Source: Acidobacterium sp. S8 (GTDB lineage: Bacteria; Acidobacteriota; Terriglobia; Terriglobales; Acidobacteriaceae). From it: a stretch of DNA of 64,000 bases. The translations under genes were made by a program, and so were the position numbers. Below are positions 33,705 through 53,119 of this stretch, piece by piece. Every line of letters begins with the position of its first letter. Positions within the stretch are counted from its first letter, which is position 1. The stretch spans positions 1-64,000 of the forward strand of contig NZ_LMUM01000027.1 in NCBI RefSeq assembly GCF_009765985.1, in the 5' to 3' direction. The notes below the pieces were generated by a model that saw only the letters and a list, made by a program, of their open reading frames with translations, was not told the origin of the DNA and did no database searches.

Positions 33705-33712
33705 AAGGGCTG
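33691..33712 (+). terminator. Hairpin at the integrase stop
   Basis: CAGCCCTTC and GAAGGGCTG form a 9-base stem with loop AGTA, overlapping the integrase stop codon. No U-run follows, so it may be a weak terminator or a structure within the attachment region between integrase and tRNA. Confidence 0.4.
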
Positions 33713-33789
33713 AATCAGTGGCCATTTCCGATTGGGGGATAATGGGGACTTAATTGGGTTTTTCGTTTCTCGTAACTGCTTGATTTGAT

Positions 33790-33866
<77 letters not shown>

Positions 33867-34755: not shown

Positions 34756-36341
34756 CAGAATTTGTATCCTGCTCCCAAACCGATGACATTACTGTCAGCG
34801 GGAAGTCCCGTGACAGGTGAACTTGTCAGATGCCGGTACTCGAGAGAGAAGAGCAGATATGCGCTTGGACTGTAAATTATATTGCTGGTATATGTACGAT
34901 TTCGAGCCAGATTCATGTACATAGAGCCTCCGGGAACCGCATAACGCCGCAGTTCCCCTGCGAATACGTTGTCCAAACCAAAGGCCTGGTTCATCTGGAT
35001 TTGTTCACTGAACTTCTCCTTAAGTTGCATCCATCCGCCAACATCATCGAGTGGCCGGATGTAGTAAACGCCTGATTCCGGATCTGCGCGATATGCGAAA
35101 TCCTTGTATGCGCCGCCGCCGAGGCCGCCGAGGGCCATTCCGCGGTAAGCACTCGCCGTCAATTCAAAATGGGTTGACAGGGCCAGCCGCGAATCGAGCG
35201 TACCTGCCCAGGAATCGAAGCTGTGCCCCAGAGCGCTGCGATGAGGTGCGAAATATCCGCCGGCACCAAAACTACTGGCTTGTTCGCCGGAACCGAGCAA
35301 GGCGATGTGAGTCTCGACCCCGGGCCATCGGCTCTGTTCCGCACTGTTGGCGATCGATGCCTGAGATTCGGTCATAGAAGGAGATATCGAAGGAGTTAAA
35401 GGCGCATCGCTTACATCGACCAACGCGGCTTCCAATTGCAGGCTACGTGAGCCGGCAAGCCTCAGGTTCTGCGTTACACCTGCTTGTGGGTTCCAGGTCC
35501 ATAGATTGCCAGACCATGCGAGAGGTGGGACGGAAACCGCCGTCAGGGAAGTCGGCACATCGGGGCTGAAGATCGGACGATCAAGTGAGAAATAGGCTTT
35601 GGTGCGGTCCCATTCCAGAAATGCATGAGCGGTGCGGAGTCGTAGTATCATGCTGCTCGTGCCGTAATATCCCGAATAACCTGCAACTTGACTGTCGGAT
35701 TGTGAGTTTCCATCGAAGTCCACACGCAGATCAGCATAGCTGCGTGCTCCAAAGAGTTGCGGACCGCGCGCATCGAATCCCAGTACCGTCTGCCTCACGG
35801 AGGCTCCTGTGCTGCCTCCTCCCGGAATGGCCAAAGTCGGCGTTGCCGCCACATCGACCGCGCTTGTATTGACAAAGGTATTCAATAGCAACAGGCCGGT
35901 GATTTTCACTGGAAACTTCGACTCACTCTCCACTTTGGTTTGTTCGTGGGTTGCAATCTGGGAGGCCTGCATCGCTTGGCGTTCCTGAATGTCTTCGATC
36001 GCTTCCGCAGTATTAACAGGCGCGGCCGATGATGCTTCCTGTGTCCGAGTTGAGGATAGTGGACTCGTACTCGATCCACTGTTTGCGATTTCGCGTTGCA
36101 AAGCAGTCAGTTGCTGCCGCATTTCATCCAGTTGATGTTGAGATTGCTCAAGTTGCGTCTGCGTACGTGTCATCGCTTCAATTAGATTTTGAATCTGCTG
36201 TTGCAAACTTGTTTGATCTACAGTTTGTGCGAGGAGACTGTTCACCCGGAAGCAGTGCAATATCAGGACAAGGAATAACACTCCACTCACGCCAAGACGG
36301 CAACCATAGGGATGCCTTCGTCTAAATCTGTACATTCTCAT
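34755..36341 (-). CDS. Outer-membrane porin-like barrel with N-terminal coiled coil
   Basis: A 528-residue exported protein. After the signal region (VLFLVLILHCFRVNSLLAQ), residues ~42-95 form a coiled coil (LIEAMTRTQTQLEQSQHQLDEMRQQLTALQREI), then a linker and about 350 residues of alternating beta strands with aromatic ends, closing GLGAGYKF with a terminal Phe, the outer-membrane assembly signal. This layout is common in acidobacterial porins partnered with cupredoxins. The ligand transported is unknown. It overlaps the histidine kinase stop by 20 bases and the cupredoxin start by one base, so all three are translationally coupled. Confidence 0.82.
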   Translation of the reverse strand: MRMYRFRRRHPYGCRLGVSGVLFLVLILHCFRVNSLLAQTVDQTSLQQQIQNLIEAMTRTQTQLEQSQHQLDEMRQQLTALQREIANSGSSTSPLSSTRTQEASSAAPVNTAEAIEDIQERQAMQASQIATHEQTKVESESKFPVKITGLLLLNTFVNTSAVDVAATPTLAIPGGGSTGASVRQTVLGFDARGPQLFGARSYADLRVDFDGNSQSDSQVAGYSGYYGTSSMILRLRTAHAFLEWDRTKAYFSLDRPIFSPDVPTSLTAVSVPPLAWSGNLWTWNPQAGVTQNLRLAGSRSLQLEAALVDVSDAPLTPSISPSMTESQASIANSAEQSRWPGVETHIALLGSGEQASSFGAGGYFAPHRSALGHSFDSWAGTLDSRLALSTHFELTASAYRGMALGGLGGGAYKDFAYRADPESGVYYIRPLDDVGGWMQLKEKFSEQIQMNQAFGLDNVFAGELRRYAVPGGSMYMNLARNRTYTSNIIYSPSAYLLFSLEYRHLTSSPVTGLPADSNVIGLGAGYKF

Positions 36342-38247
36342 GTGCAGCCACCTGATCGCGATGTTTTGATTCAGTTACTGTCATGTCTTGCTCAGGAAGG
36401 TTGCGTGCTACCTTCATTTGAAAAATTGTTTCTCCGGGACGACTGCTTAGCAGAACCACTTCTCCTCCATGTTCCGCAGCAATGCAATGAGCGAGCGTGA
36501 GGCCTAATCCGGTCCCTTTTTGCTTGCCTTCGCTCACAAATGGCTCAAAAAGAGTATTCCGAATGTTTTCGGGAACGCCTGCCCCATTGTCAATTACCTT
36601 GATGAACACATAATGCGCTTCCGTCTGCAAAACTATCGCAACTTTCGCCGCGTCTTCCGATGCACGAACGGATTGGCACGCATTGATTAGCAGGTTGAAA
36701 ATGGCGCGCTCAATCTGCTTTCCGTCCACGACGACTGCGGTCTCTGTGGGCTCACCGTATTGTGCTTCCATCACAACGCCTTCCGCATCTGGATGCTGAC
36801 GTGCCAGCGAAGTTGCTCGCTCCAGCAGCGTAACCATCAATTCCGCGGACCGTCTGGTACCTTTGCCTGATCGGCTGAAGATGAGCAGTGATTCGATCAT
36901 GTCGGTTGTGCCATGAACGGCAGAACGGATATCTGCAAATATTTCCGATCGCTCTTTTGATAAGAGCCGGTCCGAGGCAAGAAATTCCGCATTAGCGTAT
37001 ATGGCTGCCAGATAGTGGCGAAGATCGTGAGATACCGAGCTAGCCATGCGGCCAATCGTTGCCAGCCGCTCTGATTCCAGGAGCGCCCCATTCACTTGCT
37101 GGATTTCGTCTCGCATGCGAGCAAACGCCGAGCTTAGCTGCCGCACTTCCTGAGTGCCATGCTGCGGGATGAGGTATTCCCTGTTGCCGATGCCAAATGC
37201 CCTTACGCTCTTTGAGAGCTCCTCAAGAGGGCGGGTCACCAATCGAGAAAGGCCAATCATCAGCCCAGTACCAAGAAGCAATGCCATCAAGCCTGCTAGA
37301 ACAATTGTGCGATCGATGCGACTGATCCAGCGTTCGGCCGGTCCAAATGATTTCAGAACAACCAATTGTAATGGCGAAGTTGCGGTAGCAGAGAGGTCTT
37401 CCGAAAAGGCAAGAAAACGCGTATCTCCAAGTTGCACAAATGCGGGCGTCCGGAGCATTTTAGAAATCAGGGGAGATTTTTGAGCCAGCTCCGGCTGAAT
37501 GGACGACGGAAGGGTGCTGGCGACAATCTGACCGCGGCTGAGAAATGTCGCTTCGACCGCGGTGGGTTGGCTCATCTGTCGCACCGTGCGCTCGGTGGAT
37601 GAGCCACTGACCACGTATCCCAAGAGCGTTCCTTCCTCGTCGCTCCCGAAGTAAAACGGTCGAACGGAACAAGCGTATAGCGACTCGCCATCAATGAGAT
37701 AGTGTTTGTCGGGATGAGCCAATAAGGTTTTCAGCCCCTGCCGGAGCTTTGTGTCAGCGGAGGGAACTTTCGTATATGCCGCGACAATCCGACCAGTTGC
37801 ATCTGCGAGAGCAAACAGATCAGCACCGCTAAGTTGCCAAAATTCAACTGCGCCATCTTGAATCGTAAGATCGTCGCCACTGGTCATCAATGCCTTCAGT
37901 GGAGGCAGATCAGCGAGCAGTGCGTTCTCGCGCTCGAGCGCTTCCAGACGTTCGGCCTGCAGACTTTGAAAAGTAACGACGGAGTGGTTCAGATCCTGCG
38001 ACAGATTGTCCGTTATTTGGACACGGAGATCCTGGCGAATGAGAAAGAGGCTGAGACTGGTGATACTCACAATTACCAGTGCCATTGCAAAGACAAGCAG
38101 CACATGCGTGCGTGCGCCCTGCCTGTCGTTCCTGCCTGTGGCCTTGTTTGGTCCGTTTTCGGACGGAAGGTCGGCTTGGCCATTAAGGGACAAATTTATA
38201 CCCTGCACCGTAGATGGTAAGTAGATGTCTTGGATTCGCCGGATCAT
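36322..38247 (-). CDS. Membrane sensor histidine kinase
   Basis: A 641-residue two-component kinase. TM1 (VLLVFAMALVIVSITSLSLFLI) and TM2 (TIVLAGLMALLLGTGLMIGL) bracket a ~220-residue periplasmic sensor with Cache-like features (GESLYACSVRPFYFGSDEEGTLLGYVVSGSS). A HAMP linker follows, then the dimerisation helix with phospho-acceptor His (SSVSHDLRHYLAAI) and the ATPase domain (NLLINACQSV, DNGAGVPENI, GTGLGLTLAHCIAAEHGG). The start is uncertain: ATG 38247 overlaps the response-regulator gene by 65 bases; TTG 38193 also overlaps it slightly. It should phosphorylate the regulator encoded just upstream. Confidence 0.92.
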   Translation of the reverse strand: MIRRIQDIYLPSTVQGINLSLNGQADLPSENGPNKATGRNDRQGARTHVLLVFAMALVIVSITSLSLFLIRQDLRVQITDNLSQDLNHSVVTFQSLQAERLEALERENALLADLPPLKALMTSGDDLTIQDGAVEFWQLSGADLFALADATGRIVAAYTKVPSADTKLRQGLKTLLAHPDKHYLIDGESLYACSVRPFYFGSDEEGTLLGYVVSGSSTERTVRQMSQPTAVEATFLSRGQIVASTLPSSIQPELAQKSPLISKMLRTPAFVQLGDTRFLAFSEDLSATATSPLQLVVLKSFGPAERWISRIDRTIVLAGLMALLLGTGLMIGLSRLVTRPLEELSKSVRAFGIGNREYLIPQHGTQEVRQLSSAFARMRDEIQQVNGALLESERLATIGRMASSVSHDLRHYLAAIYANAEFLASDRLLSKERSEIFADIRSAVHGTTDMIESLLIFSRSGKGTRRSAELMVTLLERATSLARQHPDAEGVVMEAQYGEPTETAVVVDGKQIERAIFNLLINACQSVRASEDAAKVAIVLQTEAHYVFIKVIDNGAGVPENIRNTLFEPFVSEGKQKGTGLGLTLAHCIAAEHGGEVVLLSSRPGETIFQMKVARNLPEQDMTVTESKHRDQVAAHENVQI

Positions 38248-38920
38248 GTTCCAGCTTCTGGCGCAGCTTCAGTATCTGATTATCTACAGTTCGTGTAGTT
38301 GGATAAAAATTATATCCCCATACTTCATTGAGCAAGATATCGCGAGTAAGTACCCGTTCTGCATTTTCGGTAAAAAACTTCAATAATTTGAATTCATGCG
38401 CAGTCAGCATCACAGTACTGCCGGAACGTGCGGCTGTCATTTTCTTAAAATCGATCTCGCAATCTGCAAAACGATAAACTTCTTGGGAAGTTGGTTTGCG
38501 CTGTCGACGAATTGCAGCCTGGACACGCGCCGTAAGCTCGCGGGGACTGAAGGGCTTGGTGACGTAATCATCGGCGCCCAGTTCAAGAAGAAGTACTTTA
38601 TCGACAACTTCGGTAATTGCGCTGAGAACGATGACTGGGATGTTGCTGGAGAGGTTTTTAAACGTCTGGCAAAGTTCGCGACCGGACAGGTGCGGCAGAA
38701 TGAGGTCGAGCACGACGGCCAAAGGCCGCTCAGTGCGAAACATTTCGAGGCCCGTTTGGCCGTCTCCTGCAACCAGGATGGAGTAGTGCTCTTCCGTAAA
38801 GATTCGACGGAGCACCTTCTGCATGCGTGGATCGTCTTCGATGACTAGAATTGTGCCGAGAGTCATTAGCGGAGCTGTGTCTTCTGCCATTTCTGCTACT
38901 AGTTCTCTGTCCTTAATCAT
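38183..38920 (-). CDS. OmpR-family response regulator
   Basis: A 245-residue regulator. The receiver domain (about 22-135) has ILVIEDDPRMQ, the phospho-acceptor Asp in VVLDLILPHLSG and Lys in YVTKPFSPREL. The winged-helix output domain (about 150-245) has MLTAHEFKLLKFFTENAERVLTRDILLNEVWGY and RTVDNQILKLRQKLEHDPANPRHLLTIYGAGYKF. AGAGG precedes ATG. OmpR-family proteins bind direct repeats one helical turn apart; exactly such TTGTCA repeats lie 68 bases upstream of this gene and before neighbouring operons, so I propose it regulates itself and the cytochrome/receptor genes. Confidence 0.93.
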   Translation of the reverse strand: MIKDRELVAEMAEDTAPLMTLGTILVIEDDPRMQKVLRRIFTEEHYSILVAGDGQTGLEMFRTERPLAVVLDLILPHLSGRELCQTFKNLSSNIPVIVLSAITEVVDKVLLLELGADDYVTKPFSPRELTARVQAAIRRQRKPTSQEVYRFADCEIDFKKMTAARSGSTVMLTAHEFKLLKFFTENAERVLTRDILLNEVWGYNFYPTTRTVDNQILKLRQKLEHDPANPRHLLTIYGAGYKFVP

Positions 38921-38987: not shown

Positions 38988-39004
38988 TGACAATGGGATG
39001 ACAA
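38988..39004. promoter_or_regulatory. Direct-repeat operator TGACAA-N5-TGACAA upstream of the response regulator
   Basis: TGACAATGGGATGACAA: two identical hexamers with 11-base period, 68 bases upstream of the regulator ATG. In the direction of that gene it reads TTGTCA-N5-TTGTCA. The same arrangement occurs at 40486-40513, 40558-40574, 48096-48112 and 48142-48158. Confidence 0.7.
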
Positions 39005-39029
39005 TTTTGTTGCTCTACAGCTACGTCTA

Positions 39030-39527
39030 TCAACAGGCTGATAGTAACGAATGCCCATAACGCAGTGACAGATCGAATGGCTCGATATCAGCTAAGCCGC
39101 GCATAAGGATAAAGATAAGAAAAGCAAGGAACGGCGTTTTTGTGTGGCCTGCAGGCAGCTTTCGTATCTGCAGATACATACTGCCGTAAATTCCCAGGAA
39201 TATGCAAACACCGATTAATCCATAAGCATAGAACTGCTGTATCAATTCGTTATGCGCCTGTCGAGCCTCAAATTGATCTGGACCAAAAAGGGGAATTACG
39301 TGCCACGGAATGGAATCCATGCCCGATCCACGGGTGTTGCATCGCTTCGGTGAGAATGTAAAGCCCCAGATGCCGATGCGCCCGGTCAACGTTTCCGGCT
39401 GGCTTCCTGCGTTACTGTAAACGTCGTAGTACGAAGACAGCAGTGTCCCAAATAAACCTACGATAACGACCGCAGCGAGAACAAGCCACAATTTGTTTTT
39501 ACGGCTTATGGATCTGTCATGCATCAA
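39030..39527 (-). pseudogene. O-antigen ligase/polymerase (Wzy_C-like) C-terminal fragment
   Basis: A 165-residue frame with two or three membrane helices. LTGRIGIWGFTF and a downstream GSGMDSIPWHVIPLFG, QFEARQAHNELIQQFYAYGLIGVCIFLGIYG resemble the C-terminal part of O-antigen ligase family proteins, where LTGR-x-IW and AHNxxLQ-x5-G-x-G are conserved. Intact members have 400 or more residues and 10-12 helices; here the first ~250 residues are missing and the part between TGRIGIW and GSGMDS looks altered (FSPKRCNTRG), possibly by indels. It lies downstream of the cytochrome gene on the same strand. Considered a decayed remnant. Confidence 0.55.
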
Positions 39528-39569
39528 CAGGAAGGATTCGCTGATGATAAATGCAACGATGGATATGCC

Positions 39570-40040
39570 TTAGTGCGTATACATTTCTGGAACGCCCTGA
39601 CTGCCGGCCGGAGGCAGGTGGCGCAGAAAAATTACAATCGACCATAGCTCATCATCGCTGAGAATCCCTTTAGAACCAGGCATTCCAGATGGTCGGATGC
39701 CAAAGTCGAGAATCCACTTTAGCTGGCCATCGGTGTATTGCTGTACCTCCCTTGAAGAAAGTGAAGGAATAGGAGGTGAAATATGATCAGCGAACGGTAC
39801 ACCCGTATTCTGGCCGTCCATGCCATGGCAGGCAACACAGTAATGCGAAAACGCCTCTTTTCCGTCGGCGATGGTCTCCGGACTTTCCACTAAAGGGTTA
39901 GCCTGCCTTTTATTGCCAATGAAGAAATGATGTTTGGCAGTGGTAACGATCTTTGTCTCAAGCTTGCCGGGGGGACTGGCTTTGCAAGCGATCAAACCAA
40001 GCATAACGGTAGCGGCAGTTGTCAGTATAAGACAACGCAT
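39570..40040 (-). CDS. Mono-haem cytochrome c lipoprotein
   Basis: A 156-residue exported class-I cytochrome c. The signal peptide ends in LGLIAC, a lipobox, so the protein is probably anchored by a lipidated Cys. The haem site is YCVACHGMDG (CxxCH) at about residue 68, with GIRPSGMPG supplying the axial Met and DDELWSIVIFLRHLP as the closing helix. It follows directly on the CuA-type gene (stop and start adjacent, 40041/40040), so the two are one transcription unit and their products likely exchange electrons. Confidence 0.9.
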   Translation of the reverse strand: MRCLILTTAATVMLGLIACKASPPGKLETKIVTTAKHHFFIGNKRQANPLVESPETIADGKEAFSHYCVACHGMDGQNTGVPFADHISPPIPSLSSREVQQYTDGQLKWILDFGIRPSGMPGSKGILSDDELWSIVIFLRHLPPAGSQGVPEMYTH

Positions 40041-40406
40041 CTAATCCACCACGTGCAAGGTCAACTTCATCGAACCGTGACCGGAGCCGCAAAATACCGA
40101 ACAGTGCCCGACGAAATCTCCTGTCTTTTCCGGTGTGAATTGTGTCTGCGCCGGAATGCCTGAACGGGCTCTCAAGTCAACGTTCAGTTCACGAAAGCGC
40201 AGTCCATGGGCAACATCCGAGCTTTTGAGCACAAGGATCACGGGTTGTCCCTTCTTCAGTGTGATATCAGCCGGATCGAAGCCGAACTTCTTAGCGTTGA
40301 TTTCAATAGTTCGAGGCCCACTTTGGGCACGGATTATTCCTGGGGAACAGGCCATAGGTATCAGAACCGCAAATAATAAGGCCAGCCGTATGCTCTTACC
40401 TTTCAT
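40041..40406 (-). CDS. Soluble CuA-type cupredoxin (COX2/NosZ-like domain)
   Basis: A 121-residue protein with signal peptide MKGKSIRLALLFAVLIPMACSPGIIRAQ (possible lipobox MAC). The mature domain is a cupredoxin with IEINAKKFGFDPADITLKKGQPVILVLKSSDVAHGLRF and GHCSVFCGSGHGSMKL. The spacing C-x3-C-x3-H-x2-M plus the upstream His in AHGL reproduces the binuclear CuA ligand set of cytochrome oxidase subunit II and N2O reductase. Here it stands alone, without an oxidase subunit I gene, as a free periplasmic or lipid-anchored carrier. It is first in the operon with the cytochrome c lipoprotein. Confidence 0.88.
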   Translation of the reverse strand: MKGKSIRLALLFAVLIPMACSPGIIRAQSGPRTIEINAKKFGFDPADITLKKGQPVILVLKSSDVAHGLRFRELNVDLRARSGIPAQTQFTPEKTGDFVGHCSVFCGSGHGSMKLTLHVVD

Positions 40407-40485
40407 ACTGTCTCCTCGACTCGTGGTGACGGCCCAATCCAGCGACCATGTTCTATCCCACGTTATCGATTGGGAGGTTGCTGAG

Positions 40486-40513
40486 TTGTCATGTGGTGGT
40501 TAATCAATTGTCA
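40486..40513. promoter_or_regulatory. TTGTCA repeats between CuA and Oar genes (plus orientation)
   Basis: TTGTCA at 40486-40491 and 40508-40513 are 22 bases apart, with a degenerate middle copy TGGTTA at 40497-40502, giving three hexamers on an 11-base period. They lie 80 bases upstream of the CuA gene (minus) and about 140 upstream of the Oar gene (plus). Confidence 0.6.
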
Positions 40514-40557
40514 TGATTTTGTCGTCCGTGCTTCGCGTGCACATCGGGACAAAAGAG

Positions 40558-40574
40558 TGACAAGTCAGTAACAA
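40558..40574. promoter_or_regulatory. TGACAA-N5-TAACAA repeat upstream of the Oar gene
   Basis: TGACAAGTCAGTAACAA, again an 11-base period, 78 bases before the Oar-like receptor ATG and in the opposite orientation to the neighbouring site, so each divergent operon may have its own copy. Confidence 0.6.
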
Positions 40575-40651
40575 CTCGCGGCCATGGCCATTTCATACTC
40601 TGTCTCGATACCAGGCGAATCTGTCGAGGAACACCCGATGAGTGACGAGCT

Positions 40652-43600
40652 ATGAAAACCCATTTACTGCGAAGGTATTTTGTTGTTTCCGCGATTCTAT
40701 TTCACTTGCTCGTGAACGTAGCCATGGGCCAGACCCCCGGAACAGGCGCGATCTCAGGCATTGTGTACGATCCGTCGGACAGAGTCGTGGCAGATGCAGA
40801 AGCGCGGGTCGTGAATGACGCAACTCAGATATCTCGCTCAGTAAAGACAACTCCGGAGGGAGTGTTTCGGGTGCTACTGCTATCCCCCGGAACGTATGAG
40901 CTTACGGTGAGCTCTCCAGGGTTTGCCTCCTATACCGTCCATTCGATTCAAGTGACGGTAAGCGAGACTAGTTCTGTAAATGTGAAACTTTTCGTCGCTG
41001 GGACGAACACAAGCGTACATGCGGACAGCGTCGCGAAAATTGTAGACTTGGAAAGCTCGACCTTGGGTGGGCTGGTGAATCAAGCAGCGATTCAATCGCT
41101 TCCGTTGTCAAATCGCAACTACACGCAGATACTCGGGCTTTCGCCCGGTGTTGTAGTCGACCTTCCAAACGCGACGGCACTGGGGAGTGGAACTCAGAAC
41201 GTTGCGTCTGATGGCGCAACACCACTGGCGAACAATATCCAGTTCAATGGCATCGATGCGAACAACCTCTCAGAAGATTCGGCGGCCAACGCTGAAACCG
41301 ATGCAGGAACGGCTATTCCCGCGCCGGATACGATCGAGGAATTTCGGGTGCAAACCGCGAACTTCGATGCTGCGTATGGACGCGGATCAGGAGCGAACGT
41401 CGACCTGGTGAGTAGAAGCGGGACAAATAAATTTCATGGTAGCGCATGGGAGTTTGTGCGTAATACAGCATTGAATGCAAATGACTTTTTCTCTAAGCTC
41501 GACGGGCAGCCACGTGCCGACCTGAAACATAATCAGTTTGGCGCAGCTTTGGGTGGCCCAATACTGCGCGACCGAACATTTTTCTTCACTTCTTATCAGG
41601 GTCTAACAGAAGTGAATGGCCTTGGTGATGAGCAGCATCCGATTTTGCCCCTGCTCACCGCAGACCGCTCGGCCGCAACACTGGGCGCGCAGTTTTGTCC
41701 GGCAGGGCATTTGGACAGTGGAGGAGGTCCCGCAACTGGTTATTTAACACAAGCGGGCGGTGTACAGGTCGCATGTGATGGATCGAACATCAATCCAGTA
41801 GCGCTAGCCATCCTCAACGCGAAGTTGTCAAATGGGCAGTTTGTGGTGCCGAGCCCGCAAGTCATACTTCCTGCAACCGGGCAGGATGCTTCGGACCAAG
41901 TGCCAATGGGACAGTCCACTTATGCGATGCCTGCTCATTTTCGGGAAGACCAGTTCACCGTCGATATCGACCAGGTGCTGAGGCAAAAGAATGCCCTTTC
42001 GGGAAAGTTTTTTTACTCGCGTGCTCCTACCGCACAACCGTTCTCCCCAAATGCGGCGAATGTTCCGGGTTGGGGAACTGACAAGCTGAATCGAAATACG
42101 ATGTTCGTGCTGGCTGATACGCATGTCTTCAATGCCAGACTGGTGAACATCGCCCGTTTCGGATATATGCGCTACGACGGGCTTTCAACTGTGCAGAATC
42201 CGCTTACGGCTGCGTCGCTCGGTCAAGGTACGCCAACAGGTGTCGCGAGTCTTACGGCCAATGCTCCAGGGCTGACTGTTGGTGGCTTCACGATCGGTGA
42301 TGCAGGCACGCCTTCGATGTGGCAGGTGACGAATTCATTTATCTGGCAGGATACCGTCGCGATCACGAGTGGCCGACATTATTTTCGCTTTGGTGCGGAA
42401 TTCAAGCGGCACCAAGTTGATCAGGATTTTCCAGAAGAAACCGATGGACTGCTGCAGATCGGCACGTTCAATGATTTTCTGCTTGGACAGAGTGCAACAC
42501 AGAATGGCAGCCCATTTGGCCTGAGCAATGTGAGCACAAGCTTTGCAGGGGCGGGCAATTTTCGCGCCAACGAGCGATATACAGATTCAGCCATTTTCAT
42601 GCAGGACGATGTAAAGCTGACGCAGCGACTGACCATCAATGCAGGCCTGCGCTATGAGGTATTCGGGGCGCCGACTGAGATCAATGGGAGGTTGTCAAAT
42701 TTCAATCCGAACATCGCTACTATCGGACCGATTCCTGCTACCGGGACCCTCAAAGGATTTACGCTAGCCTCGAATTTTAAAGGTTCTGTACCGCCAGACG
42801 TGGTTAGAACGTCATACGCCAGTCTTTACAGAACTCCCTTCGGCGACATTTCGCCGCGGTTGGGTTTCGCATGGCAGGTAATGAGTGCGCCGGCTCTCGT
42901 ATTGCGTGGTGGATACGGTATCTACTATGACCGGCATTCAGCTACGGTTGCTGAGCAGATCATTAATGACCAGCCTTTCACGCTTTCGCAGATTGTTTCT
43001 GGTGCTCCAAATGGTGGCGCAACGCTACAGAGCCCTTTCGTTCCGCTGGTTCCATCTAGTTCCGCCTTTCCGGTATTCATACCTCTCACGCCCACTTCGA
43101 CGCCGTTTATAGAGGCCACCAACCCGAATCTGAGGGATGGGAAGACTCAGGAGTACAACCTCAACGTGCAATATGACATGGGCCACGGGTATTTGCTGGA
43201 GGTGAGATATGTAGGAACAAGATCGGCACAACGCCCAGGGCAAGTCGAATTCGATCAGGCTCTCCTTGCCAGCCCTCAGCATTCAGTGAACGGGGAAACA
43301 ACAAATTCAATCAGTAACGTGAATGCCAGAATGCCGATTCAAGGCATAAGTCAAGGATCGCTCTATACCGACTCGTCATTCATTGCAAACTATAACGCAC
43401 TGCAGGCGAGCATTACGAAACGGATGACCCGCAGTTTTCAGCTTCAGGCAAGCTATACATGGTCAAAGAATCTCGACGAAGTGAATGGTGAAGTCGGTAC
43501 CGACTTCTTCGAACTGCAATTACCGACGAACAATCAGCGCGATTTGCGGCATTCATCCTATGGTCCGGCGGGCACTGATCGTGACCAGAGAGTTGTAGCA

Positions 43601-44179
43601 AATTTCGTTTGGTCGGCGCCTAAGTTCTCTTCAACTCCTAGGCTGGCCCGGTACGCCTTCGCAAATTGGGAATTCTCCGGCATCGCGGTGCTTCAATCAG
43701 GCATCCCTCTCAGCATCTTTGACGGCAATGCAGGTTCTGTTTATGGGCTGATTCCCGGCGAGGTGAGAGCGGAGCGCACAGGAGCCGAGCCCAGGACGCA
43801 CGGCTCGTTGTTCTCGCGTGTCATCAATGGCTATATTGATCCGAATGCATTTACACGCGCCCCAATGGCCCCGTTTGGGACGAGTCTCGCTGACCAGGAT
43901 TTTGGCAATAGTGGCGTGGGCATTATGCGGGGGCCTGGGCAGCACAATCTGGATCTCGCAGTTGAACGCTCCTTTCCAATAAAGGAAGCGGTCAGCTTTC
44001 GCTTCCGGACCGAGTTTTTCAATTTCACGAATACCCCGCAATTCGGAAATCCAAACACAAGCTTGGGTTATACCGATCCGACACTTTTAAATCCATCGGC
44101 GAGTCCAACTTTCGGCAGGATCACGAGCACAGTTGCCAATCCGCGCATCATCCAGTTCGCGGGAAAATTCGTTTTCTAA
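40652..44179 (+). CDS. Oar-like TonB-dependent outer-membrane receptor
   Basis: An 1,175-residue outer-membrane protein of the type expanded in acidobacteria. After the signal peptide (ILFHLLVNVAMGQ) comes a carboxypeptidase-regulatory-like beta sandwich (about 27-115: GAISGIVYDPSDRVVADAEARVV...GTYELTVSSPGF), a plug domain (SLPLSNRNYTQILGLSPGVVVD...FNGIDANN...PDTIEEFRVQTANFDAAYGRGSGANVDLVSRSGTN), then a long beta barrel ending in FAGKFVF with terminal Phe. Such receptors import or handle large substrates such as polysaccharide fragments or peptides with TonB energy. It heads an operon with an HprK-like kinase and an MFS transporter; the operator-like TTGTCA repeats lie just upstream. Confidence 0.92.
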   Translation: MKTHLLRRYFVVSAILFHLLVNVAMGQTPGTGAISGIVYDPSDRVVADAEARVVNDATQISRSVKTTPEGVFRVLLLSPGTYELTVSSPGFASYTVHSIQVTVSETSSVNVKLFVAGTNTSVHADSVAKIVDLESSTLGGLVNQAAIQSLPLSNRNYTQILGLSPGVVVDLPNATALGSGTQNVASDGATPLANNIQFNGIDANNLSEDSAANAETDAGTAIPAPDTIEEFRVQTANFDAAYGRGSGANVDLVSRSGTNKFHGSAWEFVRNTALNANDFFSKLDGQPRADLKHNQFGAALGGPILRDRTFFFTSYQGLTEVNGLGDEQHPILPLLTADRSAATLGAQFCPAGHLDSGGGPATGYLTQAGGVQVACDGSNINPVALAILNAKLSNGQFVVPSPQVILPATGQDASDQVPMGQSTYAMPAHFREDQFTVDIDQVLRQKNALSGKFFYSRAPTAQPFSPNAANVPGWGTDKLNRNTMFVLADTHVFNARLVNIARFGYMRYDGLSTVQNPLTAASLGQGTPTGVASLTANAPGLTVGGFTIGDAGTPSMWQVTNSFIWQDTVAITSGRHYFRFGAEFKRHQVDQDFPEETDGLLQIGTFNDFLLGQSATQNGSPFGLSNVSTSFAGAGNFRANERYTDSAIFMQDDVKLTQRLTINAGLRYEVFGAPTEINGRLSNFNPNIATIGPIPATGTLKGFTLASNFKGSVPPDVVRTSYASLYRTPFGDISPRLGFAWQVMSAPALVLRGGYGIYYDRHSATVAEQIINDQPFTLSQIVSGAPNGGATLQSPFVPLVPSSSAFPVFIPLTPTSTPFIEATNPNLRDGKTQEYNLNVQYDMGHGYLLEVRYVGTRSAQRPGQVEFDQALLASPQHSVNGETTNSISNVNARMPIQGISQGSLYTDSSFIANYNALQASITKRMTRSFQLQASYTWSKNLDEVNGEVGTDFFELQLPTNNQRDLRHSSYGPAGTDRDQRVVANFVWSAPKFSSTPRLARYAFANWEFSGIAVLQSGIPLSIFDGNAGSVYGLIPGEVRAERTGAEPRTHGSLFSRVINGYIDPNAFTRAPMAPFGTSLADQDFGNSGVGIMRGPGQHNLDLAVERSFPIKEAVSFRFRTEFFNFTNTPQFGNPNTSLGYTDPTLLNPSASPTFGRITSTVANPRIIQFAGKFVF

Positions 44180-44194
44180 ACGCAGTGGAGATGG

Positions 44195-45205
44195 ATGATG
44201 CTAACGATTGAACAGATAGAGTCTGCCTGCGATGCTTCTCTGCAGTTCGATTTTTCTCGGCACGAGATTGAAGCGCCGGAACTTAAATTGTGCTGTACGT
44301 ACTATCCATACGGCTTTCCGGTTGAAGTGAAAACGAATTCGAATGAGGTGCTGGAACAATTCAGTCAGCTCTGGGGAAGATTCACCAAGATGCATGACAC
44401 AAAGCCGCTCTGCACGGACGTGCATGTGGTGGACAACGACGCAACCGATTGCCCGCCAGCGCCGAGTTACCGAATCATGCTTCCTCTGTTGATATGTGTC
44501 GCAGACGTCGATAACTACGGCATTATCGACCTAAATAGTTGCCGCGGAAAGATCACTGTCTCACGTGCTGCACTGCGTTATCCGCTCTATAGCCAGTATT
44601 TTCTTTTGGGGATGGCAGCGTCCGGTATCGCGACACGGTACACAACGCCCATCCATGCTGGCTGCGTGGCGCTGGACGGTCGAGGTGTTCTGTTATGCGG
44701 TGATTCGGGGGCAGGCAAATCGACATTGTCATATGCCTGCGCGAGCGCCGGCTGGACATATCTAAGCGACGACGCAACTTTTCTTGTCAATGGTGGAACA
44801 GATCGTTTGGTGACAGGAAACTGTCACCAAGTTCGCTTTCGTCCTTCAGCTGTGGAGCTCTTTCCTGAACTTCAAGGGCTTGAAGTTACCCCGCGCGCCG
44901 CTGGCAAACCCTCGATCGAGCTGCCTACCGCACCAATGAAATACATCGAGCGAGCGGACACGGTGCGAGCGGACTTCATAGTCTTTTTGAAGCGGCGGGA
45001 TGGAGCTCAGGCGCGACTAGTCCCTTATCGCAAAGATGTGGCGCGACAGTTCATGCGGCAGGCGCTATATGGACTGACGGAATCACTGGCTCTACAGTAT
45101 GCAGCCATCGAGCGACTATTAGCTGCTGACGTTTTCGAGCTTACTTACAGCAGTCTGGATGCGGCCATTGACCGCTTACAACGCCTAGTGCGGAGAGGGC
45201 AGTGA
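44195..45205 (+). CDS. HPr kinase (HprK)-like serine kinase
   Basis: A 336-residue protein with an HprK-type nucleotide site: HAGCVALDGRGVLLCGDSGAGKSTLSYACASAGWTYLSDDATFLV, where GDSGAGKST is the Walker A and the LSDDA segment the following acidic strand. The ~140-residue N-terminal region is variable. No HPr protein or PTS genes are nearby. Proteins of this type also occur in peptide-modification clusters (for example lasso-peptide kinases), so the substrate may be a peptide or small molecule. GGAGATG precedes ATG. Its stop overlaps the MFS start (TGATG), so the two are coupled, and the Oar receptor is 15 bases upstream. Confidence 0.82.
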   Translation: MMLTIEQIESACDASLQFDFSRHEIEAPELKLCCTYYPYGFPVEVKTNSNEVLEQFSQLWGRFTKMHDTKPLCTDVHVVDNDATDCPPAPSYRIMLPLLICVADVDNYGIIDLNSCRGKITVSRAALRYPLYSQYFLLGMAASGIATRYTTPIHAGCVALDGRGVLLCGDSGAGKSTLSYACASAGWTYLSDDATFLVNGGTDRLVTGNCHQVRFRPSAVELFPELQGLEVTPRAAGKPSIELPTAPMKYIERADTVRADFIVFLKRRDGAQARLVPYRKDVARQFMRQALYGLTESLALQYAAIERLLAADVFELTYSSLDAAIDRLQRLVRRGQ

Positions 45206-46488
45206 TGGAAGGGCTGTTGAATTCAGCTCAATGTGTCGCGAAAGCAGTCTCCTTCTGGAAAAATCCTTACGCTTGGTTGCTGGACAAAAGACTGAGTCGC
45301 GGTTACTGGGTATTTTTTTCGGCCGCTTTCTTCTTCGATGCGGGTTTTGCTGTGTATTTCTTCCTATTCAACCTTTATTTGCTGGATTGCGGCTTCAATG
45401 AGCGTTCGATGGGCTGGATCGGCGGTGCGATGACGCTCGGGTCGCTAGCTGCGACGTTGCCAGTCGGCGCACTCGGGCGAAGGATCGGCGTGCGGCCTCT
45501 GCTAATCATTCTTTTTATTAATGCTCCGCTAACAAATGCCGTGCGCGCTATATGGGTTTGGGAGCCCGCGCAGATTGCTTTCGCGTTTCTTACCGGCGTC
45601 GCCATGAGCAGTTGGGGTGTGTGTTTTCTTCCAGCCGTCGCTCGACTCACGAATGAGAGAAACCGGACTTCAGGATTCAGTCTGATCTTCTCCGTGAGCG
45701 TCGGAACCAGTATGCTGGGCGGCATCGTGTGTGGCTATCTTGGCAAGTGGCTCGGTTTGGCCGGGTTCATGATTCAGCCTCTCGCGGTGAAAAGGCTGAT
45801 CTTGCTAGCTGCCTGTGGGATAGCACTTGTAGGGCTGTTTCCGGTGTTGCGTCTGCATGTGCCATCGCAACAGGATGCGTTTATCACGGAGCACGGACAT
45901 AGAAAATGGTTGAAAGCAGGGAAGTCAAACCCGTTTTTGATACGCTTCCTCCTCTGTATGGCGTTGTGGTCTGGAATCCTGGCCGCATTCACTCCTTTTG
46001 CGAATGTGTATCTGACAAAAGACCTGCATATCTCGATGACGAAGATTGGACTGATTTTCTCGAGCGTGCAGGTAGTGCAGTTATGTATGGGGCTCTTAGC
46101 TCCAGTCCTTTTTCGTGCGTTGGGATTGGTGAATGGAATCGCCATTACCCAGATTGCTGCAGGAATTGTATTAGTCCTTCTATCCAAAGCAGCAAATGAG
46201 AGAGTGGCCATAATCTTGTATCTGATTTATTCGGCTGCTCAGTGGATGAGTTCTCCGGGACTCTATAACTTGTTGATGAGTAAGACTCCAGACGAAGATC
46301 GAAGCAATGCTGCTGCCGCAACGATGTTCTGCAATTCCCTGGTTGCTTCGGTGGCTACAGCAGGAGCTGGAATTCTCTTTGCACGGTTTGGCTATTCACC
46401 CGTGCTATTGCTTCTTGGGGCAGGAGCGTTGCTGATCGCCTTTTTATTCCATTCTCTTATTTCGCCTTTGCAAAACGGAGCGGGCTAA
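45205..46488 (+). CDS. Major facilitator superfamily transporter
   Basis: A 427-residue inner-membrane transporter with 12 predicted helices. The first helix region is YWVFFSAAFFFDAGFAVYFFLFNLYLLDCGFNERSMGWIGGAMTLGSLAATLPVGALGRRIGVRPLL, with the G-x3-GRRIGVR loop between helices 2 and 3, typical of MFS. A central loop (HVPSQQDAFITEHGHRKWLKAG) separates the halves. The start may be GTG 45202 or ATG 45205; GGAGAG suits both. In context it may export or import the substrate handled by the HprK-like kinase and Oar receptor. The substrate is unknown. Confidence 0.88.
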   Translation: MEGLLNSAQCVAKAVSFWKNPYAWLLDKRLSRGYWVFFSAAFFFDAGFAVYFFLFNLYLLDCGFNERSMGWIGGAMTLGSLAATLPVGALGRRIGVRPLLIILFINAPLTNAVRAIWVWEPAQIAFAFLTGVAMSSWGVCFLPAVARLTNERNRTSGFSLIFSVSVGTSMLGGIVCGYLGKWLGLAGFMIQPLAVKRLILLAACGIALVGLFPVLRLHVPSQQDAFITEHGHRKWLKAGKSNPFLIRFLLCMALWSGILAAFTPFANVYLTKDLHISMTKIGLIFSSVQVVQLCMGLLAPVLFRALGLVNGIAITQIAAGIVLVLLSKAANERVAIILYLIYSAAQWMSSPGLYNLLMSKTPDEDRSNAAAATMFCNSLVASVATAGAGILFARFGYSPVLLLLGAGALLIAFLFHSLISPLQNGAG

Positions 46489-46512
46489 GGTGGGCTACGA
46501 CTTCGACTGGAG

Positions 46513-46701
46513 ATGACAGCGTTGGCCTTTCAACCGGACAAATATTTTTCGCAATATGACGGCATCATTGCGGGATTTCAATTGTGGGATCGCATCGGTG
46601 AGAATGTAGCGGCTGCGGTGCAGGCGCTAGGATCAAACGATGAACAGGTTGCCGACCGCTACAGGAGTTGTGGCACAAGCGCCGAAAATGTTATGGATTG
46701 A
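46513..46701 (+). CDS. Small hypothetical protein at the end of the Oar-HprK-MFS operon
   Basis: A 62-residue frame 24 bases after the MFS stop: LAFQPDKYFSQYDGIIAGFQLWDRIGENVAAAVQALGSNDEQVADRYR, mainly helical with many aromatics. It overlaps the convergent cytochrome gene end by 11 bases. No ribosome site is clear, since GGAG lies too close to ATG. It could be a true small protein, perhaps the substrate of the neighbouring kinase, or the truncated start of a lost gene. Confidence 0.4.
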   Translation: MTALAFQPDKYFSQYDGIIAGFQLWDRIGENVAAAVQALGSNDEQVADRYRSCGTSAENVMD

Positions 46702-46996
46702 AGAAGCGCAATAGTTCCTGCTCGTCGTGCTGACTGAGAGAAGCGCGTACACGCATGTGGCGCACGACGGTACCTGAAATATTGGGAGAGAAGCCCTCGG
46801 GCGCTGTGTGACAGCGCGAACAATGCGCCTCAAAGAGACGTTGACCTTCATCCTCATGTGGCTGAGGTTTGTTCGATGTGGGTGAGTGCTTGTCTGTTGG
46901 ATTCGGAGGGACTTGCTCAGTCTTCTGTGACTTGGCCTCGGGTAGGGGCAGTGCAAGCGCCCCCAAAATGATGGCAAGAAAATATTTCTTATTCAT
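46691..46996 (-). CDS. Small cytochrome c
   Basis: A 101-residue exported cytochrome. Signal peptide MNKKYFLAIILGALALPLPEAKS, then a Pro-rich linker, the haem-binding FEAHCSRCHTAPEGF (CxxCH) and a closing region RVRASLSQHDEQELLRFFNP with a possible Met ligand in RHMRV. AAAGGA lies upstream of ATG 46996; the ORF start at 47053 adds 19 residues from the overlapping barrel gene. The ATG overlaps the barrel stop (ATGA), so the cytochrome is co-translated with an outer-membrane protein. Confidence 0.85.
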   Translation of the reverse strand: MNKKYFLAIILGALALPLPEAKSQKTEQVPPNPTDKHSPTSNKPQPHEDEGQRLFEAHCSRCHTAPEGFSPNISGTVVRHMRVRASLSQHDEQELLRFFNP

Positions 46997-48042
46997 TTCA
47001 TTTTTCCTTTCCAGGTGGGGAAAAGAAACCGGTAAACAATTCCCGTTTCCCAAATGTTCGTATCGCCGGCCGACGAGAACTGCCGCGCATAGCTGGTAAG
47101 AATTCTCGTGTTGTGCGGCAGGTTATAATCCAATCCGAAATCGGCGCGCTGTACGTTCGTCAGCGGTAGGCCATCGCTCGCAACGTTGTCACGGCGGAAT
47201 GTCTGCTGCATACGAAATAGAGGTTCGAAACGGCCGATCCAACTATTAAGGCCTCCGAACGCCTGCGTCCTGTAGTCGGCTTCGATCCAATAGCCTTGTG
47301 CATGACGACCGCGCGCGAACTCAGAACGCAGCCGAAAAACGGTGTCTTTTGGCTCCCACCATAGATGTGCACCGTAAAAGTTTTCTTGTGTATCCTGCAG
47401 TTGTCGGTCATACGACAGGCCCAGTTCAAGACGGCTACCAGGCAGATAGAGGCTGGCGCGCCCGCCGAATGAACGTTTCGCGTTGAATTGTTCATTATCA
47501 CTGCGAGCAGAGAACCATGTAGCGTAATCAACGGAGTACTTTCGGCGTGACACTGCGGAACCGCGTAACATTCCACCTAATCCTGAACCGCTCGATAGCA
47601 GCCCTAGACTGGCGATAAGCGGGCCATCTTGAAAATTGCCGATCCAGACTGGGGATAACCTCTCGTTATAGGTGTTAAACGGAAGCAGAAAGCTGCCGCC
47701 GACCAGGGTGAAATGCGGAGAAACAATGTAGTCGCCTTGGAGATAAGTGAATCCGGCGAAATGAGTGTGATCGTATCCGTTGCTGTCAGGAGAAAAGGTT
47801 TCGAGTATCGTCGCCCGTGACTCTATGAGTAAATGCTTGCCGATCGGCGCAGCCAGCAAAGGCTCGATCAATGGTTGATAGGTGGTATTACCTCCATTCG
47901 TGCTGGTAAGAAACGCAACACCTCCGGAGATGAGGGGCGTGTCCTGCGCGACTCCACAGCGGGCACAGAAAACGAGGGCCAACGAAAAAATGGCGCCCAT
48001 CGTCATTTTCAAATATCGATATCTCAGAATCAGGTGGGGCAT
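46993..48042 (-). CDS. Outer-membrane beta-barrel protein of unknown function
   Basis: A 349-residue exported protein with signal sequence MGAIFSLALVFCARCGVAQ. The rest alternates short aromatic beta strands (LVGGSFLLPFNTY, RASLYLPGSRLELGLSYDRQ, FRLRSEFARGRHAQGYWIEADYR), typical of outer-membrane barrels. It is not recognised as a named family. Its tail GIVYRFLFPTWKGKMK is not a classical terminal Phe. Two TTGTCA-type repeat pairs lie 54-116 bases upstream. It is coupled to the cytochrome c gene that follows, a porin-cytochrome pairing suggestive of electron transfer across the outer membrane (inference). Confidence 0.7.
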   Translation of the reverse strand: MPHLILRYRYLKMTMGAIFSLALVFCARCGVAQDTPLISGGVAFLTSTNGGNTTYQPLIEPLLAAPIGKHLLIESRATILETFSPDSNGYDHTHFAGFTYLQGDYIVSPHFTLVGGSFLLPFNTYNERLSPVWIGNFQDGPLIASLGLLSSGSGLGGMLRGSAVSRRKYSVDYATWFSARSDNEQFNAKRSFGGRASLYLPGSRLELGLSYDRQLQDTQENFYGAHLWWEPKDTVFRLRSEFARGRHAQGYWIEADYRTQAFGGLNSWIGRFEPLFRMQQTFRRDNVASDGLPLTNVQRADFGLDYNLPHNTRILTSYARQFSSAGDTNIWETGIVYRFLFPTWKGKMK

Positions 48043-48525
48043 GCTGCCACATTAGCGAGAACGGCGGAGCGGCGTGTCTCGGCATCGTCTGGCCTTTGTC
48101 AATTGATTGTCACTTGCGTTCGGCATCCGTCGTAACAAGCGTGACAATCGTATGACTCTGATACGACAACTGTCCGAATCGGCGGTCAACGAGATCGCAT
48201 TGTCTGAGGTTGTGCTTATAACGCAGAAGTGCTCAGCGCAGAACTGCTAATGGAGAATTGTGCGACCAAGGTCGTACATGAGTTTTTGCAAAATATGTAG
48301 GCACTATATTAGGGATTCGCCGTGTCGGTACTCACGCCCGATGAGAAACAAAAACGAATTCTTCCGACTGGAACAGTCGTGAATGAATCGAAAACACCTA
48401 TGCTTGTCGATACAGAGTAGGACTTGATGCCGGCCGAACGCAACAGGCAAACAGAGTAGCTTTGCAGTGAGATGCCTTGATACCATCCGTCGCGATTGCG
48501 AAGGATGGCATCAGGGTCGGGACTA
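48043..48525. other. 483-base intergenic region with operator repeats and inverted repeat
   Basis: Holds the two TTGTCA repeat pairs near the barrel gene, a weak copy of the CACTTGTCCGA-type repeat (48165-48190), and the inverted repeat GATACCATCC...GGATGGCATC (48479-48512) just after the htpG stop, which may act as its terminator though no U-run follows. No gene is seen. Confidence 0.5.
48096..48158. promoter_or_regulatory. Two TTGTCA-type direct-repeat operators upstream of barrel/cytochrome operon
   Basis: TTGTCA-ATTGA-TTGTCA at 48096-48112 and TGACAA-TCGTA-TGACTC at 48142-48158, each with the 11-base period seen at 38988. They lie 54 and 100 bases before the barrel gene start, in opposite orientations. 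A TAACAA at 48133 may be a further partial copy. Confidence 0.65.
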
Positions 48526-50975: not shown

Positions 50976-51299
50976 GGCGACAAAGCCGTCTTTCGTCAGC
51001 AATCTTTCTTGACGAGAATCGCCTTGCCGAATGTTCTGTTGCATTGACTTTGGGCGAAGGGGCCGGCTTTTTTTGCCGATCTGATGGATTATTGGGCGAT
51101 TTGGTAACAACTGAGGCGTTGTTCACCCACTTGGACATTTTGTTTGCAGTGTGATCGCCACTTGCATCGGTAGTTTGTCGCCAGAGAAGTTTGAACCCAC
51201 TATTTTAGATCAAAGATATATCCGCTCTCAGTCTCGTCATTTCATCGAGTTTTAATGCGGCGGCTCGCAACAGTTGAAACGATGGTGTGTGGTATCGAG

Positions 51300-53119
51300 A
51301 TGCAGTTACAGTCTACTAACCAGGGTTTTCGATCTATCGGCAGTCTGTTAATCACCCTTAGTGTTTTGCTAATCCTATTTTGCAGTCGGCCGCTGCACGC
51401 CCAAGAGATGCCAGAAGAAATCTGTGCACGTCCACACATCGGCAGCGTGGTCGAAGAGCCGGCAGACGTCCGAAGTACTCATGGCGTGCTCGAAATTACC
51501 CTGACTGCTTTCAATGCCGCGCAAAGCGATGGCAGCACACGCTACTGTTTTATAGATGCGCAGGGCCGTGAATCTCCCAATCTACGTGTCAATCCAGGCG
51601 ATTTAGTGATTATTCATTTGAAGAATGCCATTACAGAGCCGAACCAGGGGGATCCGGAGGCATCGCATGTCCACTCACGAATGACCGGTAACGCCTGCAC
51701 GAGTGGGACAATGAGCATCTCGTCCACCAATCTGCATTTTCACGGACTGACGATCCCGCCGGTCTGCCACCAAGACGATGTTTTGAAGACTTCGGTACAG
51801 CCGGGCGACCCTCCGTTTGAATATCGCTTTCGCATTCCGGAGAATGAGGCGCCCGGGCTTTACTGGTATCACCCGCACATTCATGGATTCAGCAAGCAAC
51901 AGGTTCTTGGCGGCGCTTCCGGCGCGTTGATCGTCGAGGGAATTGAGCGCGTGAAAAGGGAAGTGGCCGGACTGCCGGAGCGCGTCTTCATTATCCGCGA
52001 TCAGGACCTGATCAACCCGAATGCGTCACCGTCGAAATCGGAGCCCGCGGTGCCAAAATTCATGATCGATCGCGACGGAGATGCAGCCAATAACGGCACA
52101 GGCTTCGGCAAGCCTGCCAAAGACCTGTCGATCAATTACGTGCCGGTGCCATTTCCGGATTACCCGCCAGCGATAGTTCAGATGAAACCGGGAGAGCGGC
52201 AGCTATGGCGAGTTTTGAATGCGTCGGCGATTACCTATCTAAATCTCGAGGTTCTCTTTCAGCGTTTCCCACAGCCATTGGGTATCGTGGCCATGGATGG
52301 TGTGCCTATCGGATATGGAGTCGACACTCAGGCAGCAGGGGAATCCTTGAACTGGCAGACGCATCTCGGCATTCCGCCCGGAGCGCGCGTGGAATTTATT
52401 GTGCAAGGACCACCTGCCGGCGAGACCGGTCTTTTGGTTAACGCGCACGGTGGACACGGGGCCGGGCGGAGAGAACGACACCAACAGGATGCTCGCGAGG
52501 ATTATTCCAACACCGAATGCTCCGGAACCACGCTTTAGATTGGAGAGTTCTCCCCAGCCGATACCCTCGCCGAATCTGAAATGGCTCGGCGATGTCGCTC
52601 CAGTGCGCGTGCGGCGATTGTACTTCTCAGAGAAACTGGCCGATCCTAATGATCCGACCAGTGCGGTCGAATTTTATCTGACCGAAGAAGGCCAAACGCC
52701 GAAGATGTTCGACATGGACGCTACACTCCCGAATCTCGTGGCCCCAGCAAGGAACGGTCGAAGACTGGATCATTGAAAACCGCTCGCGCGAGCTGCACGC
52801 CTTCCATATCCATCAACTGCATTTTCTGCTGCTTGAATACATGGGCAGGCAGGTGAACGAGAATTTTGTGAGGGATACGGTTAACGTGCCCTACTATGAC
52901 GGCCGATTGCTTAGCTATCCCAGTATTCGGGTTCGCGTTGATTTTCGCGGCCCGAATATTGTCGGGACATTTCCGTACCACTGTCACCTCCTCGAGCATG
53001 AAGACAAAGGCATGATGGGGTCGATAGAGGTTGTTCCGCAAAAAGCGGCTGAATCGCCCTTAGCGGACATGATTCCTGAGTCAGCGAAGAAAATTCACAA
53101 AGGCGAAGCCCAGCGATAA
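51300..53119 (+). pseudogene. Multicopper oxidase, broken by two single-base insertions
   Basis: Three consecutive frames (51255-52538, 52399-52776 and one running 52748-53119) together encode a ~600-residue exported multicopper oxidase. Copper motifs are in order: NLHFHG (HxHG), YWYHPHIHG, HAFHIHQLHF and FPYHCHLLEHEDKGMM (HCHxxxHxxxxM), the four conserved regions. The signal peptide is LITLSVLLILFCSRPLHAQ. Frame 1 leaves at LLV (extra T near 52438, LV-TRTVDTGPGGEND restores sense) and frame 2 leaves at NLVA (extra C in a CCCC run near 52743, restoring QQGTVEDWIIENRS). Both shifts are +1 in short homopolymers, so they could be real decay or sequence error. Confidence 0.85.

Follow-up and report, generated by a model that had tools for sequence, protein, structure and literature searches.

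Which protein binds the repeated hexamers that lie in front of a response regulator gene and its neighbours in Acidobacterium sp. S8? The DNA in question is a stretch of 64,000 nucleotides (contig NZ_LMUM01000027.1, positions 1 to 64,000; hereafter the window), in which an initial annotation had noticed repeats of the form TTGTCA-N5-TTGTCA around a two-component system and had named the local OmpR-type regulator as the candidate binder. We observed that these repeats form tandem arrays that are conserved in relatives and co-occur with the regulator across genomes. Based on these comparisons, it is highly likely that the arrays are the binding sites of the response regulator (RR) encoded at 38183-38920, which would be phosphorylated by its sensor histidine kinase (HK) and control operons for surface and electron-carrier proteins.

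Repeats had been claimed at five places and are present at all of them, two being exact TTGTCA-N5-TTGTCA (38988-39004 on the minus strand and 48096-48112 on the plus strand). Likewise, the degenerate middle copy described for 40486-40513 was recovered (TTGTCA-N16-TTGTCA with the middle unit TGGTTA). The pairs at 40558-40574 and 48142-48158 exist as well, but with one mismatch (TTGTTA) and two mismatches (GAGTCA), respectively, which had gone unflagged. Moreover, the pairs are real but proved to be parts of longer arrays, with further units at 40519-40524 (TTGTCG), 40547-40552 (TTGTCC), 48085-48090, 48074-48079 and 48164-48169.

All arrays are intergenic and consist of hexamers in tandem with an 11-bp period. 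They front four operons comprising 11 genes, namely RR-HK-porin-cupredoxin (38920 to 34045), CuA-cytochrome c (40406 to 39570), Oar-HprK-MFS (40652 to 46488) and barrel-cytochrome c (48042 to 46691). The CuA-cytochrome c operon is preceded by four units (40486-40524, minus strand; CGACAA-N5-TGACAA-N5-TAACCA-N5-TGACAA on the gene strand), followed after 20 bp by TAACGT (40460-40465). Four units also precede the barrel-cytochrome c operon (48074-48112, minus strand; TGACAA-N5-TGACAA-N5-AGACGA-N5-AGACAC), with TAATGT (48049-48054) after 19 bp. The Oar-HprK-MFS operon has three (40547-40574, plus strand; GGACAA-N5-TGACAA-N5-TAACAA), CATACT being located 19 bp further on, and identical units are found upstream of Oar in a relative (locus L095). 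The predicted binding site of the RR operon (38988-39004, minus strand) comprises two exact units, TTGTCATCCCATTGTCA in gene direction, in the orientation opposite to the arrays at the target genes. Finally, an orphan array (48142-48169, plus strand; TGACAA-N5-TGACTC-N5-CGACAA) faces empty DNA in this genome. Hence, of the two repeats that had been assigned to the barrel-cytochrome c operon, the one at 48096-48112 stands upstream of it, but the one at 48142-48158 fronts no recognisable gene here.

In the entire 5.44-Mb genome, exact TTGTCA-N5-TTGTCA occurs three times, twice in the window and once on another contig (C19:62809). Allowing one mismatch yields 17 sites compared to 16 for the reversed control pattern, and five of the 17 fall within the 9-kb stretch of the window described above (overlapping units are not independent); at this stringency, a single dense cluster thus stands out from a background at chance level. 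When the three-unit CuA pattern was scanned over the genome with up to three mismatches, ten matches were obtained versus six for the reversed control. The best match was the CuA array, the barrel array shared second place, and the ten also included the Oar and C19 arrays. The C19 array (C19:62809-62846; L003, L295) contains four units, followed after 19 bp by TAGTCT, and is located upstream of a TIGR03118-family gene. About ten scattered genes had been proposed to be tied into one system; in this genome, the system hardly extends beyond a single cluster, with one further gene elsewhere.

The comparison with relatives was based on 40 orthologous loci of the same family (765 kb fetched). RR, HK and the porin are present in all 40 loci and the cupredoxin in 39-40 of them. 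Among the 298 genomes of the order, about 30 encode an ortholog of the sensor half of the kinase with 55-65% identity, and more distant orthologs occur beyond these. Although intergenic DNA accounts for just 8% of the bases, 29 of the 32 exact sites and 85 of the 97 one-mismatch sites in these loci are intergenic. In the same loci, 40 permuted hexamers gave means of 0.75 exact and 5.6 one-mismatch sites, and the two high scorers among them are frame-shifted versions of the motif. Sites were found upstream of RR in 31 of the 40 loci, of CuA in 16, of the barrel gene in 16 plus 3 truncated ones, of NTP_transf_5 in 8 and of PhyH in 7. In aligned promoters of RR (n=34), CuA (n=24) and barrel (n=18) genes the units are conserved, whereas the flanking DNA has otherwise diverged. 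The RR promoter consensus AATTGTCAtncgATTGTCATTT is conserved in 34 orthologous promoters, the four-unit pattern together with TAnnnT is kept in front of 24 CuA orthologs, and in the target promoters TAnnnT follows the last unit at a constant distance of 19-20 bp. Likewise, the 94 unique exact sites carry extra units at +22 (30%) and +33 (38%), the off-phase mean being 3%.

A separate scan of named genomes provided 75 loci, nearly all from Acidobacteriaceae (Granulicella, Edaphobacter, Terriglobus, Acidicapsa, Acidipila, Occallatibacter, Terracidiphilus and Silvibacterium), of which 45 served as a held-out set after exclusion of the loci already used and of L239 and L249, whose upstream slices were wrong. 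With at most one mismatch (the fifth base of the second unit being A or C) and within 150 bp upstream of RR, a site was found in 34 of the 45 loci, compared to 0.13% of shuffled sequences. Taken together, these cross-genome tests remove reasonable doubt that the repeats are real. Moreover, the recognition helix of RR is conserved together with the motif.

The presence of the repeats was then compared with that of the sensor-regulator pair in 51 members of the family, 31 with the kinase (165 Mb) and 20 without it (80 Mb). We observed 106 exact sites in the former and 3 in the latter, corresponding to 0.64 versus 0.038 sites per Mb (Mann-Whitney p = 1.4e-8). The density in the genomes without the kinase is at chance level, and the two groups do not differ in the reversed control pattern (7 and 4). 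Correspondingly, no RR ortholog at 50% identity or more was found in the 20 kinase-less genomes. Of the 106 sites, 55 are located on contigs other than that of RR or at a distance of over 40 kb from it, and these are still about nine times denser than the sites in kinase-less genomes. These dispersed sites front the same families, including the barrel, the HprK-related kinase, PhyH oxygenase, NTP_transf_5, GT87 and B12-radical SAM proteins. The repeats are therefore not at random positions, an outcome that had been named as refuting the regulon, but intergenic and recurring before the same gene families even where these genes lie elsewhere. Since they are enriched only in genomes with the sensor-regulator pair, this pair very probably controls these genes. 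The co-occurrence (106 versus 3 sites, the lack of RR in the 20 genomes and the held-out RR sites) likewise makes the local OmpR-type regulator the best candidate binder, as had been suggested, and the link between regulator and motif could hardly be made stronger by comparing sequences.

Several observations weigh against this interpretation. In the window alone, nine sites with up to two mismatches compare to 5.4 expected, an unremarkable number that is reached by 11 of 100 shuffles. Some of the dispersed sites front unrelated-looking genes (AhpC/TSA, type III polyketide synthase, S15 peptidase). The genomes G024 and G095 possess the regulator and zero exact sites, one-mismatch sites being present in both (L096, L107), and in 11 of the 45 held-out loci, mostly with less than 51% kinase identity, the 150 bp before the RR start contain neither an exact nor a one-mismatch site. 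Because several of the scanned genomes are close relatives, the counts are not fully independent and overstate independence somewhat. In addition, the arrays are oppositely oriented to the promoter at RR and at the targets, and the sign of the regulation is therefore not readable from sequence.

The non-significant count in the window would be expected if a short motif had been noticed by eye merely by chance; this notion is already refuted by the conservation in independent loci, and its probability is negligible. Alternatively, the sites could be Pho boxes, bound during phosphate starvation by a PhoB homolog and not by the local RR. In fact, TTGTCA-N5-TTGTCA is similar to CTGTCAT, the core of the E. 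coli PHO box (PMC4415409), and a separate gene (C6:165674) encodes a PhoB-like regulator of 236 bits; this best PhoB-like protein of the genome is, like RR, under the PhoB equivalog cut-off. However, of 30 genomes tested, 29 possess a PhoB-like regulator, among them 19 of the 20 without the kinase, which hold chance numbers of sites. Since it thus occurs in both genome groups, the sites are not simply Pho boxes. They instead track the local RR locus, and the site-associated genes that were annotated, a part of the downstream genes, included none recognisable as a phosphate gene (phosphate uptake or phosphatase). The Pho-box reading was therefore rejected on the basis of co-occurrence and target genes, and we grant it a slight chance at most.

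It is just as improbable that the sites are bound by a different OmpR-type regulator, which only happens to co-occur with this locus, and that the local RR has another target. The genome encodes at least nine OmpR-type regulators, and members of the family can share similar hexamers. Nevertheless, the most consistently conserved site is that of the RR gene (31 of 40 and 34 of 45 loci), and no unit other than RR-HK-porin-cupredoxin is retained in practically all of the fetched loci. It is very unlikely that the repeats represent conserved promoter elements, such as -35 hexamers of an alternative sigma factor, rather than operators. The last unit does lie near -35 in the target promoters, with TAnnnT 19-20 bp further on, but three to four units at an 11-bp period, two orientations and, in the RR promoter, a distance of about 43 bp between the site and the AT-rich element misfit a sigma factor, and the presence of the repeats tracks the RR/HK locus.

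The assignment of the arrays to the local RR is in line with what is well established for OmpR/PhoB-type regulators, which bind in tandem to direct repeats with a period of 11 bp. The E. coli PHO box has this period as well, but with respect to the promoter the target arrays are oriented oppositely to it. Further features common to E. coli PhoB are the type of regulator, the direct repeats, the TGTCA core and, as predicted here, tandem head-to-tail binding (PMC4415409), whereas the recognised targets are not phosphate genes and RR scores 192.1 bits against the PhoB cut-off of 296.2. The score of RR against the MtrA model is about equal (195 bits) and likewise below the cut-off (300). Among NCBIfam models and solved structures (2gwr), it is nevertheless MtrA of the MtrAB system that RR matches best over its full length, but the kinase sensor and the gene context differ. 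PhoP of Mycobacterium tuberculosis binds as a cooperative tandem dimer to direct repeats with a period of 11 (a 7-bp motif and a 4-bp spacer) and more tightly to three- and four-unit arrays (PMC4832192); its hexamer sequence and its targets differ from those described here.

What the sequences show directly is the sites, how they are conserved and that they co-occur with RR; binding and phosphorylation, as well as the sign, the signal and the physiological role, are inferred. If the arrays are operators of RR, the dCache-type kinase (36322-38247) would phosphorylate RR on a signal, and RR protomers would sit head to tail on the hexamers 11 bp apart. The three- and four-unit arrays in TGACAA orientation just upstream of the -10 element would then control the CuA-cytochrome c, Oar-HprK-MFS and barrel-cytochrome c operons. 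The control of these targets would most likely be exerted by activation from the -35 position, which fits the fixed step of 19-20 bp between the last unit and TAnnnT. The two-unit site of opposite orientation before the RR gene would mediate autoregulation.

The RR protein (38183-38920, minus strand), the proposed array binder, consists of a receiver and a winged helix (PF00072 and PF00486, both above the Pfam cut-off). Among 13 orthologs its recognition helix is nearly unchanged with TRTVDN invariant, and the phospho-acceptor D72 in an invariant LDL motif, the acidic residues E28-D29-D30 and K122 are invariant as well. The HK gene (36322-38247, minus strand) overlaps the RR gene in the same operon and encodes HAMP, HisKA and HATPase domains and a dCache_3-like sensor just under the Pfam cut-off; SVSHDLRHYLA is invariant in six orthologs. 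With its domains, an operon kinase carrying a phospho-acceptor motif, the receiver aspartate and a putative direct-repeat operator with a period of about 11 bp, RR displays the features of the OmpR/PhoB family. The operon continues with an outer-membrane porin-like protein with an N-terminal coiled coil (34755-36341, minus strand; ortholog in 40 of 40 loci) and ends with a secreted cupredoxin-like protein (34045-34755, minus strand), which has no Pfam match and conserves FFHNVFSL and FCNIHPEM.

The CuA-cytochrome c operon encodes a CuA/cupredoxin protein with a COX2-like domain (40041-40406, minus strand; PF00116/PF13473) and a cytochrome c (39570-40040, minus strand; PF13442/PF00034). An Oar-type TonB-dependent outer-membrane barrel (40652-44179, plus strand; PF25183, PF13620), an HPr-kinase-related kinase (44195-45205, plus strand), HprK_rel_A-like with a score under the curated cut-off, and an MFS transporter (45202-46488, plus strand; PF07690) form the second target operon. 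The third comprises a predicted outer-membrane beta-barrel (46993-48042, minus strand) and, 3' of this gene and overlapping it, a small cytochrome c (46691-47053, minus strand; weak PF13442) that is kept beside the barrel in relatives. The barrel shares 67-80% identity among 15 orthologs and has no match among Pfam or NCBIfam models; its predicted structure is strand-rich and of low confidence (mean predicted local distance difference test score of 51). Its annotated start lies about 7 bp past the proposed -10 element, so that the true start may be further in.

In many relatives the gene order is barrel on the minus strand and NTP_transf_5-Wza-Wzz-Wzx-GT4-CuA-cytochrome c-Wzy-RR-HK-porin-cupredoxin on the plus strand. 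The two-component system is thus embedded in a Wzx/Wzy-type exopolysaccharide operon that is fronted by sites too, as for regulators of such loci, whereas here the polysaccharide genes are lost and the CuA, cytochrome and cupredoxin partners are unusual. The window keeps the order CuA-cytochrome c-Wzy-RR, Wzy being represented by a C-terminal remnant of an O-antigen/exopolysaccharide polymerase (39030-39527, minus strand; about 165 of about 428 amino acids; weak Wzy_C PF04932). Full-length orthologs of about 428 amino acids are located between cytochrome c and RR in relatives. No NTP_transf_5 ortholog was found in the whole genome, and the position of the orphan array (48142-48169) corresponds to the start of the NTP_transf_5/exopolysaccharide operon in relatives. 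On the simplest reading, the polysaccharide genes would have been lost in this lineage while the remainder of the regulon was retained. Ancestrally, the system may have controlled a Wzx/Wzy-type exopolysaccharide locus together with periplasmic copper/cytochrome proteins, of which this genome would have retained the surface and electron-carrier part. A reading of the HprK, nucleotidyltransferase and ABC genes as a lasso-peptide cluster (ribosomally synthesized and post-translationally modified peptide) was rejected: the 703-amino-acid protein is GT87 and not an asparagine synthetase, and the context consists of Wzx/Wzy polysaccharide genes.

We tentatively entertain the idea, which is rather doubtful at present, that Acidobacteriaceae possess a lineage-specific two-component system by which exopolysaccharide production is coupled to periplasmic copper/cytochrome proteins and a new family of outer-membrane barrels. 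If true, envelope polysaccharide and the handling of electrons or copper outside the cytoplasm would be linked in a way not described before, and the present genome would be a natural experiment with the polysaccharide half deleted and its regulatory array persisting. A literature search found no description of this regulon, and the main text of an omics paper on Granulicella WH15 mentions neither cytochromes nor response regulators. The kind of system is ordinary, with a usual OmpR/PhoB-type RR; the regulon and its gene content appear to be undescribed. They provide a testable set of regulator, motif and targets for a widespread soil family, and a regulatory handle on genes without assigned function (the barrel family, the HprK-related kinase, NTP_transf_5 and the secreted cupredoxin) as well as on the exopolysaccharide locus across relatives in Granulicella, Edaphobacter, Terriglobus and Acidicapsa. 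If the regulon is as proposed, loss of the one regulator gene should reveal the conditions of surface-polymer production.

Just left of the module, a tyrosine integrase gene adjoins tRNA-Met (33790-33866; integrase and tRNA together 32523-33866), and a TrwC-type relaxase is encoded at 27525-30212, which suggests an integrated mobile element at tRNA-Met beside the regulon. On the other side, a multicopper oxidase-like gene (51255-52776) has a match to the Cu-oxidase_3 domain only, followed by an overlapping frame, and is possibly truncated or frameshifted. Likewise, a phosphoesterase-family gene (PF04185; 53195-55316) lies in two open frames and is apparently interrupted.

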